Shown: positions 6,074-24,107 of the stretch, one piece after another
How positions within the stretch are numbered: position 1 is the first letter of the stretch
Layout: the number at the start of each line of letters is the position of its first letter
From: a virus
Reading direction: 5' to 3' (one strand)
Virus record (IMG/VR): IMGVR_UViG_3300010411_000152
Span: 1 to 24,107 of that record
DNA length: 24,107 nucleotides
Made by a program: the position numbers and the translations under genes
The notes under the pieces: model-generated
The model's database searches: none
The model's input: only the letters and a program-made list of their open reading frames with translations
What the model was told of the DNA's origin: nothing

Positions 6074-6175
6074 ATGCAGAAAGAAACACAGACGACTAAC
6101 TCACCACTTCAGGAAGTCGCATCCATTCTCGCCAACGGCATCATCCGCCTGAAAAAGAAAGGGAAACTGAAATAA
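6074..6175 (+). CDS. 33-residue micro-protein coupled to the cytosine methyltransferase
   Basis: The reading frame starts at an ATG preceded by the very strong Shine-Dalgarno AAAGGAGG at 6062-6069. It ends in TAATG, so its stop overlaps the next gene's ATG by one base. The peptide is MQKETQTTNSPLQ followed by a short amphipathic segment EVASILANGIIRLKKKGKLK: a hydrophobic helix then a basic tail. Similar tiny 'LAxILAxGxLRL' proteins occur in phage structural regions, but I know no assigned function. It could be a leader peptide that sets translation of the methyltransferase, or a small structural or DNA-binding protein. The preceding 140 bases (5934-6073) hold no gene and only weak inverted repeats. 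Confidence 0.6.
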   Translation: MQKETQTTNSPLQEVASILANGIIRLKKKGKLK

Positions 6176-7899
6176 TGCGGTACGGGAGCATTTGCAGTGG
6201 AGTAGAAGCGGCAACCCTTGCCTGGGAACCGATGGGCTGGAAACCGGCGTTTTTCGCCGAGGTTGAGCCATTTCCGTGTGCGGTACTGATGCAGAAATTC
6301 GGCGCGACGAAGCCGAAACGCGTGCTGGTGCCGGATGAAGCAGACACGGCAAAGGAACGCAAGCAGCGCGAGCTGTGGCAAAAACAAATCGCCAAGTTCC
6401 CGGAGGGCGGAAGTATTCCGAACCTCGGGGATTTTACAAAGATCACAAAGGAGGATTATGACGGAAAAATCGACTTGCTTATCGGAGGCCCGCCCTGCCA
6501 GTCGTATTCATGCGCGGGGCTTAGAAAGGGACTTGATGATCCGCGCGGCAACCTCTCGCTTGAGTTTGCTCGACTGGCTTACCGCCTTGAATCACGATGG
6601 TTTTGTCTTGAAAATGTCCCAGGGATGCTGTCACAAAGCAATGGCCGGGCCTTTGCTGAAATACTATCGGCTTTCTGCGGATGGGAAGTTGAAGTTCCTG
6701 TGCTCAGAAGAAAGAAAAACGGCGAAGTCGTCAGAGGCTGGAAGAAGTCCGGCGTCGTCACTCCCGCTCCCGGAGGATACGGGCTGGCATGGCGAACTCT
6801 TGACGCTCAGTTCGTGCGAGTGGACGGGTATTCACGGGCTGTTCCTCAAAGACGAAGGCGTCTCTTCCTTATCGGAAGTATTGGAAGCTGGGAACGTGCC
6901 GCGGCGGTACTTTTTGACGAAGAAAGCCTGCGAGGGAATACTCCGCCGGAGCGAAAAACGAGGCAAGGAGCTTCCTGTGGATTTGAAGTCGGCCCTGCTG
7001 GAGGTCGTCAATCTGACGTAAGTGCCACCCTTGATACGAAGTGCAAAGACGGGGCGGTCCGCAACCAGACGGGCATGCTTTGCATGGCTCACGGTCAGGG
7101 CAATGCGGAGCTTTTGAGTGAGAAATCCCCCACGTTGAACTGCAACCATGAAGCTCCGATTATCTGCCGTGAATCCGGACAGGGCTTTTGGCGGCAGGAT
7201 GAAGCATCCGGCACAGTCAAGGTTAATGGCGCTGAACCGACAACCGTGGTCTGTCTGAACAACCGCCCGCAGGAATTCAAAACCGAGGAACAGATTCATT
7301 ATCCGCTTCGGGCTACCGATTATAAACAGCCTCCGGTTATCTGCTACGAAAACCATCCGAATGATTCCAGGATAAAGGAACTGACTGAAGGTGTGTGTCC
7401 GCAGATAAATGCCCGGGCCGGTACCGGCGGTGGAAATTTGGGCTTAGTGCTGCATGTCGCCGGGTTCCTGCCGGGGCAAGGGCAGAAAGCGGGGAGCATA
7501 GGGTACGAGGATGATTTGGCTCCGACGCTGCGCAGCGGATGCGACAACTACGGCGTATTTAAAAGCTACGCCATAGCCGAAAACATCATCAACCGCAAAG
7601 TCAAAAACGGCGGCAACGGGACCGGGGTAAAAGAAGGTATTCAATACACCTTGAACACAGTTTCACCGCATGGCGTTTCCTACAAATCCGTGGTTCGCCG
7701 GATGATGCCTGTTGAGTGTGAACGCCTGATGGGCTTTCCGGATAACCACACCAGAATCGCCTGGAACGGCAAAGGTGAAGAAGAATGCCCTGATTCCCAT
7801 CGCTACAAAGCCTGCGGGAACAGTTTCTGCACAAACGTAGCCAGATGGGTCGGAATGAGAATTCAAATGGTGGAGGATTTTTACAATGAGCGAACTTGA
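6175..7899 (+). CDS. DNA cytosine-5 methyltransferase
   Basis: This 574-residue enzyme transfers a methyl group from S-adenosylmethionine to C5 of cytosine. Motif I is YGSICSGVEAA at the N-terminus. The catalytic PCQ is in GGPPCQSYS (Cys108). Motif VI ENV is at E146. Motif VIII is PQRRRR near R226. The C-terminal motifs are RMMPVECERLMGFPD and GNSFC (Gly548). The region between motifs VIII and IX, residues about 280-470, is long and holds a degenerate repeat of about 30 residues, probably the target-recognition region. The ATG overlaps the micro-protein stop by one base. No restriction endonuclease is nearby, so it is an orphan phage-type methyltransferase, presumably for anti-restriction. 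A further frame inside the gene (6335-7021) is a shadow. Confidence 0.93.
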   Translation: MRYGSICSGVEAATLAWEPMGWKPAFFAEVEPFPCAVLMQKFGATKPKRVLVPDEADTAKERKQRELWQKQIAKFPEGGSIPNLGDFTKITKEDYDGKIDLLIGGPPCQSYSCAGLRKGLDDPRGNLSLEFARLAYRLESRWFCLENVPGMLSQSNGRAFAEILSAFCGWEVEVPVLRRKKNGEVVRGWKKSGVVTPAPGGYGLAWRTLDAQFVRVDGYSRAVPQRRRRLFLIGSIGSWERAAAVLFDEESLRGNTPPERKTRQGASCGFEVGPAGGRQSDVSATLDTKCKDGAVRNQTGMLCMAHGQGNAELLSEKSPTLNCNHEAPIICRESGQGFWRQDEASGTVKVNGAEPTTVVCLNNRPQEFKTEEQIHYPLRATDYKQPPVICYENHPNDSRIKELTEGVCPQINARAGTGGGNLGLVLHVAGFLPGQGQKAGSIGYEDDLAPTLRSGCDNYGVFKSYAIAENIINRKVKNGGNGTGVKEGIQYTLNTVSPHGVSYKSVVRRMMPVECERLMGFPDNHTRIAWNGKGEEECPDSHRYKACGNSFCTNVARWVGMRIQMVEDFYNERT

Positions 7900-8082: not shown

Positions 8083-9567
8083 GTGAAGCCAGAAGGTAAA
8101 TATCTTTACTATCCTGACGGCAGAAGGATGGAAATAAAAGCTTCTCCCCGGCCCGTATTCAGGCCGCATGGGATTTCCGGCTGGAACCGGCAGGTGACGG
8201 CGCGGTTCGACGCGGCGCAGACCACACACGACAACCGCCGTCACTGGGCAGCGGCCGGGAACCTGAGCGCCGATGCCGAAGCCTCTCCCGTAGTCCGGCA
8301 AATTCTGCGCAACCGGGCCCGGTACGAGATTTCCAATAACTCGTATGCGAAAGGCATCGTCCTGACGCTGGCGAACGACGTTATCGGTACCGGGCCGAGA
8401 TTGCAGATGCTGACTTCGGATGACGTATTCAACCGCCGGATTGAACAGGATTTAATGCTATGGGCAGCGGCAGTGCGGCTGCCGGAAAAACTCCGCACCA
8501 TGCGGATGGCGAGGTGCCAGGACGGCGAAGCTTTCGGGATCATGGGAACGAACCCTAAAGTCCCGCACGAAATCCAGCTTGATTTGATGCTGCTTGAAGC
8601 AGATCAGATTGCCAGCGGATTCGCTTTGAGCATGGATAAATACGAAGTCGACGGAATAATCATGGACAGTTTCGGCAATCCTGACCTTTACCGGGTGCTG
8701 AAGTTCCACCCCGGCGGCGCCAGTTTCAACCGTTACGACGACGCGGTGACTATTCCTGCTGAATCCATGCTGCATTGCTTCCGCGTTGATCGTCCCGGAC
8801 AGCATCGGGGAGTACCGGAAATGACTCCGGCGCTGCCGATTTTCTCGCAACTGCGCCGCTTTACGCTGGCGGTACTCACAGCGGCCGAAGCGGCGGCTGA
8901 TTTTTCCGGGATTCTCTACACGGACGCGCCGCCCAACGGCGAGGCTGACGAAGTCGATCCGATGGCGCTGGTCGAACTCGAGCGCAATATGCTCCTGACC
9001 ATGCCCGGCGGCTGGAAGATGGCGCAGCTCGACCCCAAGCAACCGGCGACAACATATGCAGAATACGTCGACAAACTGATTGACGAAGCGGTACGCTGCA
9101 TCCTGATGCCGAGCAACATCGCCAAAGGAAATTCGAGCGGCTACAACTATGCCAGCGGCAGGCTTGACCATCAGGTTTATTTCAAGGCCATCCGGGTGGA
9201 CCAGTCGTTTATCGCGTCTGTGATTCTGGACAGGATTCTGCACTCCTGGCTGCGGGAATATTTCCTGCTGCATCCGGTATTCGAAATGAATTATCGCTAT
9301 CCGCTGCCGCAGCACGCCTGGTTTTGGGACGGCAATTCGCACGTCGATCCGATGAAGGAAAGCCGGGCTCAGGATATCCGGCTCAAAAATCATTCCACAA
9401 ATTTGGCTTTGGAATATTCCCTCGCGGGCAGAGACTGGGAATCGGAACTCCGTCAGGCGGCGCGGGAAAAGAAGCTGATGCAGGAACTCGGACTGACCGA
9501 TGAAGACATAACCCTTTTACGAAATAACCACGCCGAAAAGGAGGACAACGCTATGAACGACGAATAA
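8083..9567 (+). CDS. Portal protein, lambda gpB-like
   Basis: This is the 494-residue portal, which forms the dodecameric ring at one capsid vertex through which DNA enters and leaves. The N-terminal third has the typical block RARYEISNNSYAKGIVLTLA followed by NDVIGTGPRLQ. The central part has the conserved QHRGVPEMTPALPIFSQLRR and AAADFSGILY. Length and order fit the lambda portal family (lambda B is 533 residues). I chose the GTG at 8083 because GGGAGG at 8068-8073 precedes it by nine bases. An earlier in-frame GTG at 8059 lacks a ribosome site and lies inside the upstream gene. The downstream 135 bases are non-coding and carry a pentamer repeat. Confidence 0.92.
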   Translation: MKPEGKYLYYPDGRRMEIKASPRPVFRPHGISGWNRQVTARFDAAQTTHDNRRHWAAAGNLSADAEASPVVRQILRNRARYEISNNSYAKGIVLTLANDVIGTGPRLQMLTSDDVFNRRIEQDLMLWAAAVRLPEKLRTMRMARCQDGEAFGIMGTNPKVPHEIQLDLMLLEADQIASGFALSMDKYEVDGIIMDSFGNPDLYRVLKFHPGGASFNRYDDAVTIPAESMLHCFRVDRPGQHRGVPEMTPALPIFSQLRRFTLAVLTAAEAAADFSGILYTDAPPNGEADEVDPMALVELERNMLLTMPGGWKMAQLDPKQPATTYAEYVDKLIDEAVRCILMPSNIAKGNSSGYNYASGRLDHQVYFKAIRVDQSFIASVILDRILHSWLREYFLLHPVFEMNYRYPLPQHAWFWDGNSHVDPMKESRAQDIRLKNHSTNLALEYSLAGRDWESELRQAAREKKLMQELGLTDEDITLLRNNHAEKEDNAMNDE

Positions 9568-9587
9568 AAAAATAATTTTTCAGATAC

Positions 9588-9672
9588 TGCACAGCTTAAC
9601 GCGGCAATACGAGGTTAGGCGCTGCTTGGCTAGGCGGGGCAATGCGAGGCTGGGCGTGGCAAGGCAAGGTGA
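9588..9672. repeat. Degenerate pentanucleotide-periodic repeat (GGCNN)n
   Basis: The non-coding gap between portal and capsid genes can be cut into 17 consecutive five-base units: TGCAC, AGCTT, AACGC, GGCAA, TACGA, GGTTA, GGCGC, TGCTT, GGCTA, GGCGG, GGCAA, TGCGA, GGCTG, GGCGT, GGCAA, GGCAA, GGTGA. Positions 2-3 of each unit are nearly always GC while positions 4-5 vary. The strongest part is 9603-9672. No frame reads through it as a credible gene, and a five-base period does not fit codons. It ends about 30 bases before the capsid-fusion ATG. An RNA-level or protein-binding role is possible. Confidence 0.7.
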
Positions 9673-9702
9673 ATTTTTAATCAAAAAAAGGAAAAACAGG
9701 AC

Positions 9703-11652
9703 ATGGAAGAATTTCTCATTATCGAAGCTGCTGCTGACAATGGCGGCAAACCGAAAGTTATGGGACTGGCTTACGGCGGCGGCAAAATGAATCTCCCCGG
9801 CTGGAAATACCCGGTGGTGGTCGATCTGGCGGGAATGGAAATCCCGGAACAGGTACCGCTCCTGGCGAACCATGAAAACAAGGTGGCGTCACGAGTCGGC
9901 ATGGTCGCGGCGAAAATCGTGAACAATACGCTGGAAATCGAAGGCAATATCGTCGCCAACGGAGAACAGGCCGACGACATCGTCGCCCAATCCAAGGCCG
10001 GGGCTGACTGGCAGCTCAGTATCGGAGCCGAGGTCAAAAAATCTGAACTGGTCAAAGGCAAACGCATCGTCAACGGTCAGGAACATTCCGGGCCGTTTTA
10101 TCACGTCGGCGAATCGACGTTGAGGGAAATTTCGGTGATTCCGGTCGGCGCGGACGGCGGCACAAAATTAAAGGTCGCGGCCAGCTTCAATATCGGCAAA
10201 GAACCGGATGAAAAAGAACCGGAAAAGAAAATTACTGCAAAGGAGGAAAAAACTGTGGCAGCGGAAAAAAAGATCAACCCTGAAACTGAAATCAAACCGG
10301 AAAAAACGGTTGTTGCCGATGGTGACGTCGCGCTCCAGGCAATTCGTATCGAGCGTGAGCGCGTGGGAAAAATCCAGGCGATCTGTGCCGGAGAATACGC
10401 CGACATCGAACGCCAGGCGATCAGCGCCGGGTGGACTCCGGAGGAAACTTCGGAAAAAGTCCTGAAGGCCTTGCGGGAGAACCGCCCGGCTGCCGATGTC
10501 AACATCATTGTCAAACGCAAACCTGCAGGTGACCGTCTGCGGAAAAACCTCGAGGCGGCCATGTGCCTGCGAGTGGGAGTTCATGCCGAAGACCTGGTAG
10601 CTTCCTACGGTGAAGAAGTGGTCGAGGCCGGATCGAACGATATGGATATGCCGGTTAAACAACTGCTTATTGAATGCCTGCGTATGGATGGAATCGAACC
10701 GCCGCGCTCCTTCGGCAACGAAACCATCCATGCGGCATTCTCAACAGTGAGTCTGCCGGGAATCCTGAGCAACGTCGCCAACAAGAAGCTGCTGGACTCC
10801 TTCCAGGCGCAGCCGATCATTGCGACCAGACTGTGCAGCGAAGGCGATCTTTCCGACTTCAAGGAAAACCAGCGGTTCCGCTTGACCGACGTCGGGGATT
10901 TGGCGCCGATTGCGGCCGACGGCGAAATCAAGGAAGGTGGACTCTCTGAAGAAAAAGCTACCAATCAGCTTGACACCTACGGGAAAAAGTTCTGCCTTAC
11001 TCGAAAAATGGTAATCGACGACGACCTCGGAGCGTTCATGAAAGTTCCAACCGCCATGGGCAACCGTGCGGCACGGCTGATCGACCAGTTGTTCTTCCGC
11101 AGGCTGCTGTCCAACCCGAACCAGTCCGACAACAGCGCTCTCTTCGCGGAAGCACACAAAAATCTGCTTTCCGGAGCCACCAGCGTTCTCGCGGCGGAAG
11201 GCCTGCGCCTGGCGATCAAACTCTTTCTGGATCAGGTGGACGCGGACGGCGAGCCAATCAGCATCGAACCAAAATTCCTGCTGGTTCCAACCGCTTTGAA
11301 ACACACTGCCATAGAGCTGACCAAGGGGGCGACGCTGATTATGGCAGGCGGTGATACTCCCTCAATCCGTCCGGCGCTGAATGTGCTCGCGGATGAAAAT
11401 CTCGAAGTGGTAAGTTCACCGTACCTCTCGAATCCCAAATACGCCGGCAACAGCGAAAATGCCTGGTATTTGTTCGGAAGTCCATCTCAGATAGACACTT
11501 TTGAGATCGGCTTTTTGAAAGGGAAACGCACTCCGACGGTGGAAAGAGGCGACACGGATTTCAACACGCTGGGGCTGTGGTTCCGGGTATATTTTGACCT
11601 TGGAGTCAGAGAGCAGGACTACCGCGGCATGGTCAGAAGTGCTGGACAATAA
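9703..11652 (+). CDS. Prohead protease-scaffold-major capsid fusion protein
   Basis: This 649-residue protein joins three head-assembly functions. Residues about 1-165 are an HK97-type prohead protease: catalytic His57 in LLANHENKVASRVG, Ser106 in WQLSIGAEV, and the conserved ESTLREISVIPVGAD. Residues about 166-260 are a Lys/Glu-rich helical region suited to scaffolding. Residues about 300-649 are an HK97-fold major capsid domain of the Mu gpT-like type, with AAFSTVSLPGILSNVANKK, LTRKMVIDDDLGAF and the C-terminal FRVYFDLGVREQDYRGMV. An in-frame GTG at 10255 with a perfect Shine-Dalgarno probably yields a separate scaffold-capsid product. The ATG has AAAGGA about ten bases upstream. Protease-capsid fusions are known; the domain limits are estimates. 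Confidence 0.9.
   Translation: MEEFLIIEAAADNGGKPKVMGLAYGGGKMNLPGWKYPVVVDLAGMEIPEQVPLLANHENKVASRVGMVAAKIVNNTLEIEGNIVANGEQADDIVAQSKAGADWQLSIGAEVKKSELVKGKRIVNGQEHSGPFYHVGESTLREISVIPVGADGGTKLKVAASFNIGKEPDEKEPEKKITAKEEKTVAAEKKINPETEIKPEKTVVADGDVALQAIRIERERVGKIQAICAGEYADIERQAISAGWTPEETSEKVLKALRENRPAADVNIIVKRKPAGDRLRKNLEAAMCLRVGVHAEDLVASYGEEVVEAGSNDMDMPVKQLLIECLRMDGIEPPRSFGNETIHAAFSTVSLPGILSNVANKKLLDSFQAQPIIATRLCSEGDLSDFKENQRFRLTDVGDLAPIAADGEIKEGGLSEEKATNQLDTYGKKFCLTRKMVIDDDLGAFMKVPTAMGNRAARLIDQLFFRRLLSNPNQSDNSALFAEAHKNLLSGATSVLAAEGLRLAIKLFLDQVDADGEPISIEPKFLLVPTALKHTAIELTKGATLIMAGGDTPSIRPALNVLADENLEVVSSPYLSNPKYAGNSENAWYLFGSPSQIDTFEIGFLKGKRTPTVERGDTDFNTLGLWFRVYFDLGVREQDYRGMVRSAGQ
10239..10257 (+). 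promoter_or_regulatory. Internal Shine-Dalgarno and GTG start inside the capsid fusion gene
   Basis: AAAGGAGG at 10239-10246 is followed eight bases later by an in-frame GTG at 10255-10257. It matches the anti-Shine-Dalgarno better than the site before the gene's own ATG. It lies exactly in the charged linker between the protease and scaffold-capsid parts. A chance purine-rich Lys/Glu codon run is the alternative. Confidence 0.55.
10255..11652 (+). CDS. Nested scaffold-major capsid product (predicted internal initiation)
   Basis: Initiation at the internal GTG would make a 465-residue protein, residues 185-649 of the fusion. It lacks the protease but keeps the charged scaffold segment and the whole capsid domain. 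In lambda, the scaffold Nu3 is made the same way from inside the protease gene C. Here it would solve a stoichiometry problem: a capsid needs hundreds of shell subunits but few proteases. The evidence is the strong ribosome site and its position at the domain boundary. There is no direct proof of use, and the full-length protein alone could also be cleaved by its own protease. Confidence 0.45.
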   Translation: MAAEKKINPETEIKPEKTVVADGDVALQAIRIERERVGKIQAICAGEYADIERQAISAGWTPEETSEKVLKALRENRPAADVNIIVKRKPAGDRLRKNLEAAMCLRVGVHAEDLVASYGEEVVEAGSNDMDMPVKQLLIECLRMDGIEPPRSFGNETIHAAFSTVSLPGILSNVANKKLLDSFQAQPIIATRLCSEGDLSDFKENQRFRLTDVGDLAPIAADGEIKEGGLSEEKATNQLDTYGKKFCLTRKMVIDDDLGAFMKVPTAMGNRAARLIDQLFFRRLLSNPNQSDNSALFAEAHKNLLSGATSVLAAEGLRLAIKLFLDQVDADGEPISIEPKFLLVPTALKHTAIELTKGATLIMAGGDTPSIRPALNVLADENLEVVSSPYLSNPKYAGNSENAWYLFGSPSQIDTFEIGFLKGKRTPTVERGDTDFNTLGLWFRVYFDLGVREQDYRGMVRSAGQ

Positions 11653-12328: not shown

Positions 12329-12690
12329 CGGATATGCTGAAAAACGGGCTTGCCTGGCTGGAAGCCCAGCGGAAAACCCACCTGACCGTGCCGGTAATTT
12401 ACCGGCGCGGCGGGAATTCCGCCGAGGTGCCGGCAACTGTCGGCAAAACGGTGTTCAAAGTCACCGACGATTACGGCCGTTTCCAGTATATCGAGAGCCG
12501 GGATTTCCTCATAAGCGCCGCCGAACTGGTGTTAAATGATGCCAGAATCCTGCCCGAACCGGGCGATGAAATTATAGAGGATGGCTTCGTTTACGAGGTT
12601 ATGGCTCCTAACAACGAGCCGGAATGGCGGTACTCCGACAGTTGCCGGAACACACTAAGAATTCATACAAAATTAACCGGAAAGGAGTAA
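12325..12690 (+). CDS. Head-completion / head-tail joining protein candidate
   Basis: This 121-residue soluble protein overlaps the decoration gene by four bases (ATGA), so the two are translationally coupled. It is beta-rich, with VPVIYRRGGNSAEVPATVGK near the start, then YIESRDFLISAAEL, LPEPGDEIIEDGFVYEV, and a closing RNTLRIHTKL. The 'E-x-RDFLI' and 'P-x-x-GD-x-I' pattern is typical of small head-closure and stopper proteins that compare a property to a polymer ring, as in the lambda FII or HK97 gp7 position. The assignment depends on gene order and this pattern. It ends two bases before the antirepressor-like gene. Confidence 0.6.
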   Translation: MTDMLKNGLAWLEAQRKTHLTVPVIYRRGGNSAEVPATVGKTVFKVTDDYGRFQYIESRDFLISAAELVLNDARILPEPGDEIIEDGFVYEVMAPNNEPEWRYSDSCRNTLRIHTKLTGKE

Positions 12691-12692
12691 AT

Positions 12693-13382
12693 ATGTCAAA
12701 GAAAAATGAAATAATCAAAATTCCGTTTTACGGAAATGAAATTGTCGTAATTGAAAAAAATGGCGAGCGGCTGGTCGCCATGAAACCCATCACGGAAGCA
12801 TTGGGTTTGGAATGGCATAAGCAATTTGAATTAATTAATCGCGATCCTGTTCTATCCAAAGTAACCATTCCCGTTACGGGAATAGTTGCCGAAGATGGCA
12901 AACGGCGTAAAATGCTCTGTCTGCCCTTGAAATACCTGAACGGCTGGCTGTTTAAAGTTCCGGCGTCCCGGTATACGGGCAAAAAGCGTGAAACTATAAT
13001 TCGCTACCAGGAAGAGTGTTATTCTGCGCTGTACGAATACTTTCACAATGGCGGAGCTGTAAACCGGAATATAAATCAGGATCAACTTGCAGATTTACTT
13101 CAGGCGGTAGCCTCCACGACAGCACACGCGGTATCCGAAGCTATGGGCAATAAAATCCTTGAGATTGCGCGGCAGGTTAAAAACTTTGAAAAGGTTGTCA
13201 TTGATCTGCAAAAAGAAAACGCTCTGCTCAAAGAATTTTCTCCCAATGGTTGTCCCGGAGAAATTTCCAGGGTTACCGGATTGCCGAGGGATCGCTATGT
13301 GCGTGGCTATTACACCAGTAATAGAAGCGGAACTCCAGTCGCCAATTTGTATCTGCAGCTTGAATTACCGCTGGGAATTTAG
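12693..13382 (+). CDS. Antirepressor-like protein, P22_AR_N domain, copy A
   Basis: This is a 229-residue protein whose residues 1-120 match the P22 antirepressor N-terminal domain: IPFYGNEIVVIEKNGERLVA, MKPITEALGLEW, CLPLKYLNGWLFKVPASRY and IIRYQEECYSALYEYF. Such proteins bind and inactivate phage repressors. Residues about 128-190 are helical, with a likely coiled coil ILEIARQVKNFEKVVIDLQK. The C-terminus (GLPRDRYVRGYYTSNRSG) differs from its paralogue. The start is the ATG at 12693 with AAAGGAG at 12681-12687; an upstream in-frame start would lie inside the previous gene. It sits among head-tail genes, away from the usual immunity region. Base composition looks more A/T-rich than its neighbours. 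Confidence 0.82.
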   Translation: MSKKNEIIKIPFYGNEIVVIEKNGERLVAMKPITEALGLEWHKQFELINRDPVLSKVTIPVTGIVAEDGKRRKMLCLPLKYLNGWLFKVPASRYTGKKRETIIRYQEECYSALYEYFHNGGAVNRNINQDQLADLLQAVASTTAHAVSEAMGNKILEIARQVKNFEKVVIDLQKENALLKEFSPNGCPGEISRVTGLPRDRYVRGYYTSNRSGTPVANLYLQLELPLGI

Positions 13383-13406: not shown

Positions 13407-14012
13407 ATGGCAAAGAAAAACAAAATAATCAAAGTCCCGTTTTACGGAAATAAAATTGTAGTAATCGAAAAAAACGGCGAACGTCTGGTCGCCATGAAGC
13501 CAATCGTGGCGGCATTGGGCTTGGAATGGAGCGGACAGCTTAAGCTTATAAAGAACGATCTTGTCCTTCACAAAGGTATGGTTGTAACGTCCATACCTTC
13601 GGAAGGCGGAGTTCAAGATACTGTTTGTCTGCCTTTGGAATATCTGAATGGCTGGCTGTTTAAAGTTCCGGCTTCCCGTTACAAGGGCTGGAAGCGTGAA
13701 GCCATCATCCGCTACCAGAAAAAATGTTACCGGGCGCTTTATGATTACTTTCATCATGGCACCGCGGTCAATCCGGGAATTACCTTTAAACAGGTTACCG
13801 GCGTTCTTAACAAATTACTGGACAAGCTGGATCAGAAAGACGACGTCATACGAGAGCTTGAATGTGAATGCCGGAACCAGCGGGAAATTATCAACGCCGT
13901 AATTTTCGGTCCGAAACTTATCCTTACCCGGCAGTGTTGCGGAAAGCATAAAGCGAGAAAATCCAAAAGCCGTATGCGGACAATCTTCGGCTTTTTCATC
14001 GGGAGAAAATAA
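13407..14012 (+). CDS. Antirepressor-like protein, P22_AR_N domain, copy B
   Basis: This 201-residue protein is a tandem paralogue of the gene before it. The first 41 residues share 35 identities with copy A. The CLPL-x-YLNGWLFKVPASRY block is nearly identical, and the DNA is also clearly similar at the 5' end. Residues about 42-75 differ strongly, as does the C-terminus. The C-terminus carries a short coiled coil (DKLDQKDDVIRELECECRNQ) and then a Cys- and Arg/Lys-rich tail (RQCCGKHKARKSKSRMR). The ribosome site is weak (GGAATGA). The pattern suggests duplication followed by divergence of a partner-binding segment. It may be an antirepressor acting on another repressor, or a decayed copy. Confidence 0.8.
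   Translation: MAKKNKIIKVPFYGNKIVVIEKNGERLVAMKPIVAALGLEWSGQLKLIKNDLVLHKGMVVTSIPSEGGVQDTVCLPLEYLNGWLFKVPASRYKGWKREAIIRYQKKCYRALYDYFHHGTAVNPGITFKQVTGVLNKLLDKLDQKDDVIRELECECRNQREIINAVIFGPKLILTRQCCGKHKARKSKSRMRTIFGFFIGRK

Positions 14013-21470: not shown

Positions 21471-24107
<2,637 letters not shown>

Follow-up and report, generated by a model that had tools for sequence, protein, structure and literature searches.

Nested protease and scaffold genes are classic in phage lambda, whose protease gene C contains the in-frame scaffold gene Nu3 (Shaw & Murialdo 1980, as cited in PMC8508860). The gene described here lies in a 24,107-nucleotide stretch of viral DNA (IMG/VR virus record IMGVR_UViG_3300010411_000152, positions 1 to 24,107; hereafter the window), and it shares with C/Nu3 an N-terminal protease and an internal in-frame start that would yield a protease-free product with the common C-terminal part. 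What characterizes the C/Nu3 type, an in-frame internal start with a ribosome-binding site after the protease that is kept in relatives, is found in the window gene. In lambda, however, the common part comprises only the scaffold, and the capsid protein E has a separate gene, whereas in the window the nested frame runs through the capsid domain; in addition, lambda C is a ClpP/SppA-type protease, while that of the window is of the S78 type. Since the nested frame includes the capsid, the arrangement would work like C/Nu3 and yet involve a different gene pair.

Phage Mu likewise has nested protease and scaffold genes (I/Z), and the capsid domain of the window gene is related to Mu gpT, but gpT is encoded by its own gene in Mu, whereas the capsid is fused in the window. 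Herpesviruses have nested protease-scaffold and scaffold genes, which provide a protease-bearing minority and a protease-free majority of scaffold, although this nesting operates through separate transcripts and leaves out the capsid protein. HK97 gp4/gp5 share with the window an S78 protease and a scaffold (the N-terminal delta domain) that forms part of the capsid chain until the protease cuts it off; the protease and the capsid of HK97 are nevertheless encoded by separate genes, as in FP_Epona, a split relative of the window gene.

The closest described proteins are the fusions of the NF045541, NF045540, phrog_4523 and phrog_133 families, including Stenotrophomonas S1 gp8, Rhodobacter RcOceanus gp8 and Pseudomonas MD8/F10 gp5, which have the same domain order as the window gene and a homologous capsid. 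The placement of protease, scaffold and capsid in one gene has been proposed for MD8 (PMC8508860), in a paper that does not mention an internal start (the word 'internal' is absent from it), and protease-capsid fusions have been noted in Arthrobacter phages (PMC5513430), in passages that mention no internal start for them. The open-licence PMC literature searched, the coverage of which is incomplete, holds no report of a nested start in capsid-including fusions, in agreement with the earlier note on this DNA, the author of which knew of no description of such a nested solution. The fusion thus has an NCBI family of its own, and nested protease and scaffold genes are long known, while the element that appears to be new is a nested start whose frame reaches the capsid.

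Organization of the fusion gene

The open reading frame is uninterrupted over 649 codons (70.5 kDa) and places protease, linker, scaffold and capsid in one frame, which bears out the proposal, made earlier from the letters alone, of a single 649-residue chain. The features are as follows.

9703..11652, + strand: fused protease-linker-scaffold-major capsid gene, a single open frame in all full-length homologues
9703..10176, + strand: S78-type prohead protease domain, residues 1-158, from Pfam, PHROG and NCBIfam matches
9871-9873 and 10018-10020, + strand: candidate catalytic residues H57 and S106, invariant in 84/84 homologues
10177..10317, + strand: hypervariable charged linker, residues 159-205, predicted to be disordered (mean identity 17%; pLDDT)
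10318..10734, + strand: helical scaffold-like region, residues 206-344 (predicted helices at 206-369; moderate identity, 51%)
10735..11640, + strand: major capsid domain, Phage_capsid_4 / Mu gpT-like, residues 345-646 (Pfam 2.5e-43)
10255..11652, + strand: nested scaffold-capsid reading frame, 465 codons, 50.9 kDa, the counterpart of the separate scaffold-capsid gene in split relatives
10239..10246, + strand: internal Shine-Dalgarno (SD) sequence AAAGGAGG, anti-SD duplex -10.9 kcal/mol
10255..10257, + strand: internal in-frame start GTG, codon 185, with GTG at this place in 9/9 clade members
9688..9692, + strand: SD (AAGGA) of the main start ATG 9703, weaker than the internal one, duplex -4.9 kcal/mol

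The Pfam S78 score of the N-terminal part (18.0 bits) is under the gathering threshold of 21, and the S78 assignment consequently rests on PHROG, NCBIfam and motifs: phrog_4523, 'major head and protease protein', matches residues 51-649 (1.8e-95), NF045541 matches residues 49-649 (3e-100), and H57 and S106 are among the 18 columns that stay invariant once distant S78 fusions are added to the alignment. The NF045541 score of 336.6 bits is below the NCBI curated cut-off of 525, which sets the Victivallis-type branch apart from the named fusion family; by NCBI's strict standard, the window gene is thus not a member but a divergent relative. The capsid domain is additionally matched by Pfam Mu-like_gpT (3e-7) and, weakly in sequence, by the JBD30 capsid protein. 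Given that the AlphaFold model of the fusion protein is poor (mean pLDDT 55) and that a Foldseek search with it gave no match at E<=0.001, only secondary structure and disorder were taken from it. Residues 149-207 have pLDDT <50, indicating predicted disorder, and the first scaffold helix begins at 206, so that codon 185 is predicted to fall inside the disordered stretch, about 20 residues ahead of that helix.

The gene is part of an ordinary head block consisting of the terminase large subunit, portal, fusion gene, cement protein, head-tail joining protein and tail genes, and no second capsid gene was recognised in the window. A GC-rich array of GGCNN-like pentamers (9587-9675) lies in the spacer between the portal and fusion genes; the array varies in length among relatives (L071, L072, L063, L054) and is lacking from L002, L003 and L061. 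The 3' end of the portal gene (9536-9567) reads, in frame, AAAGGAGG, 8 nt, then ATG AAC GAC GAA TAA, and this plan of an SD, an ATG, a few acidic codons and a stop, common to L004, L005, L063, L071 and L072, resembles another start or a mini-ORF. Elsewhere in the window, tandem paralogues with P22_AR_N (antirepressor-type) domains (12624-13382 and 13407-14012) stand in the middle of the head-tail block, a ParB_N + N6/N4 methyltransferase fusion (1753-2958) and a C5 cytosine methyltransferase (6175-7899) flank the terminase region, and 9- and 18-bp tandem repeats of collagen-like G-X-Y type (22450-24047) probably belong to a tail fibre.

The internal start signal

The signal itself is established. 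Eight nucleotides separate AAAGGAGG from GTG 10255, which is in frame (9703+3x184) as codon 185 and is followed by 465 residues, exactly as the earlier note had read it; its placement of the site in the charged linker after the protease also holds, as residue 185 falls within residues 159-205. The claim that this site looks better than the one before the first ATG is confirmed by the anti-SD duplexes of -10.9 and -4.9 kcal/mol, respectively. GTG is a weaker start codon than ATG. The internal site lies in one of the least structured stretches of the gene.

Conservation of the site among relatives

Homologues were collected from 69 loci of IMG/VR and 27 loci of GTDB genomes, many of them from Victivallaceae, other Lentisphaeria and Kiritimatiellae, with Victivallis vadensis DSM 14823 included, a prophage of which carries a homologue with AAGGAG-4-ATG (L075, in one 90% cluster with L013); the window is that of a phage of Victivallis-type bacteria. 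The comparison set of 84 homologues was reduced to 45 representatives by clustering at 90% identity. A site was counted where an SD of at least 5 contiguous matching nt was followed, at a spacing of 4-11 nt, by an in-frame start in the linker, and chance was controlled for by synonymous redrawing of codons with each gene's own codon usage (500 redraws), by codon permutation, by out-of-frame starts and by the rest of the gene.

An SD with an in-frame ATG or GTG in the linker is present in 44/45 representatives, and the absence from close homologues that had been named in advance as counter-evidence did not occur. The SD reaches at least 5 nt in 41/45 representatives, against a mean of 14.6 and a maximum of 24 in the synonymous null, and at least 6 nt in 27/45, against a mean of 6.8 and a maximum of 14; codon permutation of the 45 gave an even lower null. 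Conservation beyond what Lys and Glu codons require, the comparison that the earlier note had called for, is thereby established across the family. Three further representatives carry AAGG-7-ATG at the aligned place, and only one full-length relative (L029, 3001-4917) among the 45 has no recognisable internal start in the linker. An SD precedes 32/50 in-frame linker ATGs as opposed to 2/66 out-of-frame linker ATGs (Fisher 1.6e-13, kinship ignored), and it precedes about 5% of in-frame ATGs elsewhere (protease 6/179, capsid 28/455; Fisher 6e-26 against the linker, kinship ignored).

No part of the protein is less conserved than the linker, which has a mean identity of 17% compared with 67% for the protease, 51% for the scaffold-like region and 72% for the capsid, and the site is therefore an island of conservation. 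In the window's own clade, the SD and GTG are kept in 9/9 representatives while the neighbouring residues vary. The start Val is GTG in 9/9 (26% in the rest of those genes), the Lys of the SD is AAG in 9/9 (33% in the rest), and the Gly within the SD is GGA in 27/32 cases across the set, compared with 408/2199 (18.6%) elsewhere; the Lys and Gly figures are partly inflated by the picking of the best site, a flaw from which the synonymous null is free. In 14 representatives the first base of the SD core falls on codon position 1, and in 30 it falls on position 2; the window clade, with position 1, reads GCA AAG GAG GAA AAA ACT GTG, and most others, with position 2, read GAA GGA GAA GTT ATG. On a tree of the homologues from which the linker was left out, the configuration (frame, spacing, start codon) has changed at least 10 times, and the site was lost only once. 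The occurrence of the site in different codon frames, with different peptides, indicates that selection acts on the nucleotides. The internal SD is stronger than the main one in 24/28 genes (mean -7.8 vs -5.5 kcal/mol), a comparison tilted towards the internal SD by the selection of the best linker site.

Split relatives and the origin of the fusion

FP_Epona encodes a separate 177-residue protease and a 531-residue scaffold-capsid protein, the latter with its own SD, and the relatives of Pd_22F are a mixture of fused and split genes. Most split Pd_22F relatives have GGAGG(T) in the 3' end of the protease gene or just after it, with a scaffold-capsid ATG that abuts or overlaps the protease stop codon. 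Where the genes are split, the separate scaffold-capsid gene thus starts at the same boundary as the internal start of the fusion, and this match is directly observed. In three loci (L287, L303 and L307) the protease and scaffold-capsid genes are in the same frame, with only the stop and one codon between them. These three have little SD of their own, which suggests that their scaffold-capsid gene may be coupled by reinitiation, and they stand one step from a fusion. Two other candidates for split genes were rejected: L046 proved to be an ordinary fusion, and the contig of L096 is rearranged, containing an inverted piece of the terminase along with a reverse-transcriptase-encoding, intron-like insert. 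In the latter (L096:900-4168), scaffold-capsid is joined to an inverted terminase fragment with a reverse-transcriptase ORF of the group II intron type within, and the region is rearranged or mis-assembled.

The fusion probably originated when a protease gene was joined with an adjacent or overlapping scaffold-capsid gene. Loss of the intervening in-frame stop would give a fusion that retains the internal start. The ancestral scaffold-capsid ribosome-binding site would already have been located within the protease 3' end and would then have been retained under selection.

Alternative explanations

The site may be viewed as a by-product of a linker rich in Lys and Glu, in which AAG GAG GAA happens to resemble an SD and GTG is merely a Val codon; about one-third of sequences do gain a site under synonymous redrawing. 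The excess of 41/45 over at most 24/45 in 500 redraws, the contrast between in-frame and out-of-frame starts within the same linkers and the codon bias render this explanation exceedingly improbable. The same low standing applies to the idea that the conserved element is a peptide, for instance a motif for binding or for cleavage by a protease, rather than a start signal. Some clades do have (E/K)GE..M or KGNSIM in common, but the clades differ among themselves (KEE, KET, EGE, KGG, EGG, KEA, KRS), since the SD sits in different codon frames, and what they have in common is the nucleotides and the start codon.

An SD-like sequence exactly at a domain boundary is also what would be expected if it paused ribosomes for the folding of the protease instead of initiating translation. 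However, an in-frame start follows within 4-11 nt after 73% of linker SDs of at least 6 nt, as opposed to 24% and 17% elsewhere in the gene, no linker SD of this length is paired solely with an out-of-frame start, and the same place is the gene start in split relatives, all of which leaves pausing highly unlikely. The existence of split relatives, from which the fusion probably derives, could also make the site an unused fossil of the ancestral separate gene. An unused signal would be expected to decay, whereas this one has persisted, with shifting frame, spacing and start codon, while the linker has fallen to 17% identity with many indels, and a fossil is thus hard to credit.

A proposed nested two-product gene

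The interpretation strongly favoured by these comparisons is that the window gene is a nested two-product gene, similar to lambda C/Nu3 and extended to the capsid, which would supply 70.5 kDa full-length and 50.9 kDa protease-free subunits. The weak site at ATG 9703 would give the full-length protease-scaffold-capsid chain, while independent initiation at the strong site, GTG 10255, would give a scaffold-capsid chain without the protease. As the main start is weaker and the internal site is little structured, more of the 50.9 kDa than of the 70.5 kDa product is predicted. A strong start after the protease, conserved in nearly all relatives, very probably means that protease-free capsid subunits are many and protease-bearing ones few. 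Both chains share the capsid domain and would co-assemble, so that the protease would be present on a minority of procapsid subunits; after assembly, it would remove the linker, the scaffold and itself, leaving a shell protein of about 33 kDa. Co-assembly and processing are modelled here on the biology of HK97 and lambda.

Other fusion families

A comparable pattern is found in RcOceanus-type S78 fusions, of which 22/33 have an SD of at least 5 nt and an in-frame linker ATG (null mean 9.0, maximum 14; 300 redraws). In this family an SD precedes 22/37 in-frame ATGs in the linker and 14/337 in the rest of the gene, and it uses all three codon positions. As a reading of sequence comparisons, the claim of a nested start is firm in both the window's family and that of RcOceanus. 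Beyond them it is suggestive, including in ClpP-type fusions: the site occurs in 6/10 Pd_22F fusions (null 2.0, maximum 7) and in 4/7 ClpP-type relatives of Psul1 (null 2.0, maximum 4; borderline and not significant), whereas the AGGA-8-ATG of 11/11 ClpP-type mEp460 relatives is below threshold, and these genes are too similar and the site too weak to discriminate. A set of 18 distant, assorted named phages did not depart significantly from the synonymous null (8 vs 7.8 at >=5 nt). In Rhodococcus phage RRH1, an unrelated minimal-genome actinophage, the fusion carries AAGGA-7-ATG where the protease meets the scaffold, at codon 274 (L119:4439-6424).

It is on balance plausible that nested two-product expression is general for tailed-phage protease-scaffold-capsid fusions (S78, ClpP and the unrelated RRH1-like), in which case the ratio of main to internal starts would set the procapsid protease dose, and what is annotated as the 'fusion capsid protein' would be the lesser of the two products of its gene.

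Conclusions

Annotations of many phage and prophage genomes list a single protease/capsid fusion protein, although a shell of hundreds of subunits can hardly hold a protease on each; a conserved internal start would solve this problem and makes protease stoichiometry directly testable. The locus would provide an example of the fusion of adjacent phage genes that preserves their separate products, and in a named NCBI family the major capsid precursor as now annotated would have to be corrected. The nested-gene principle of lambda C/Nu3 would thereby be extended to the capsid itself.
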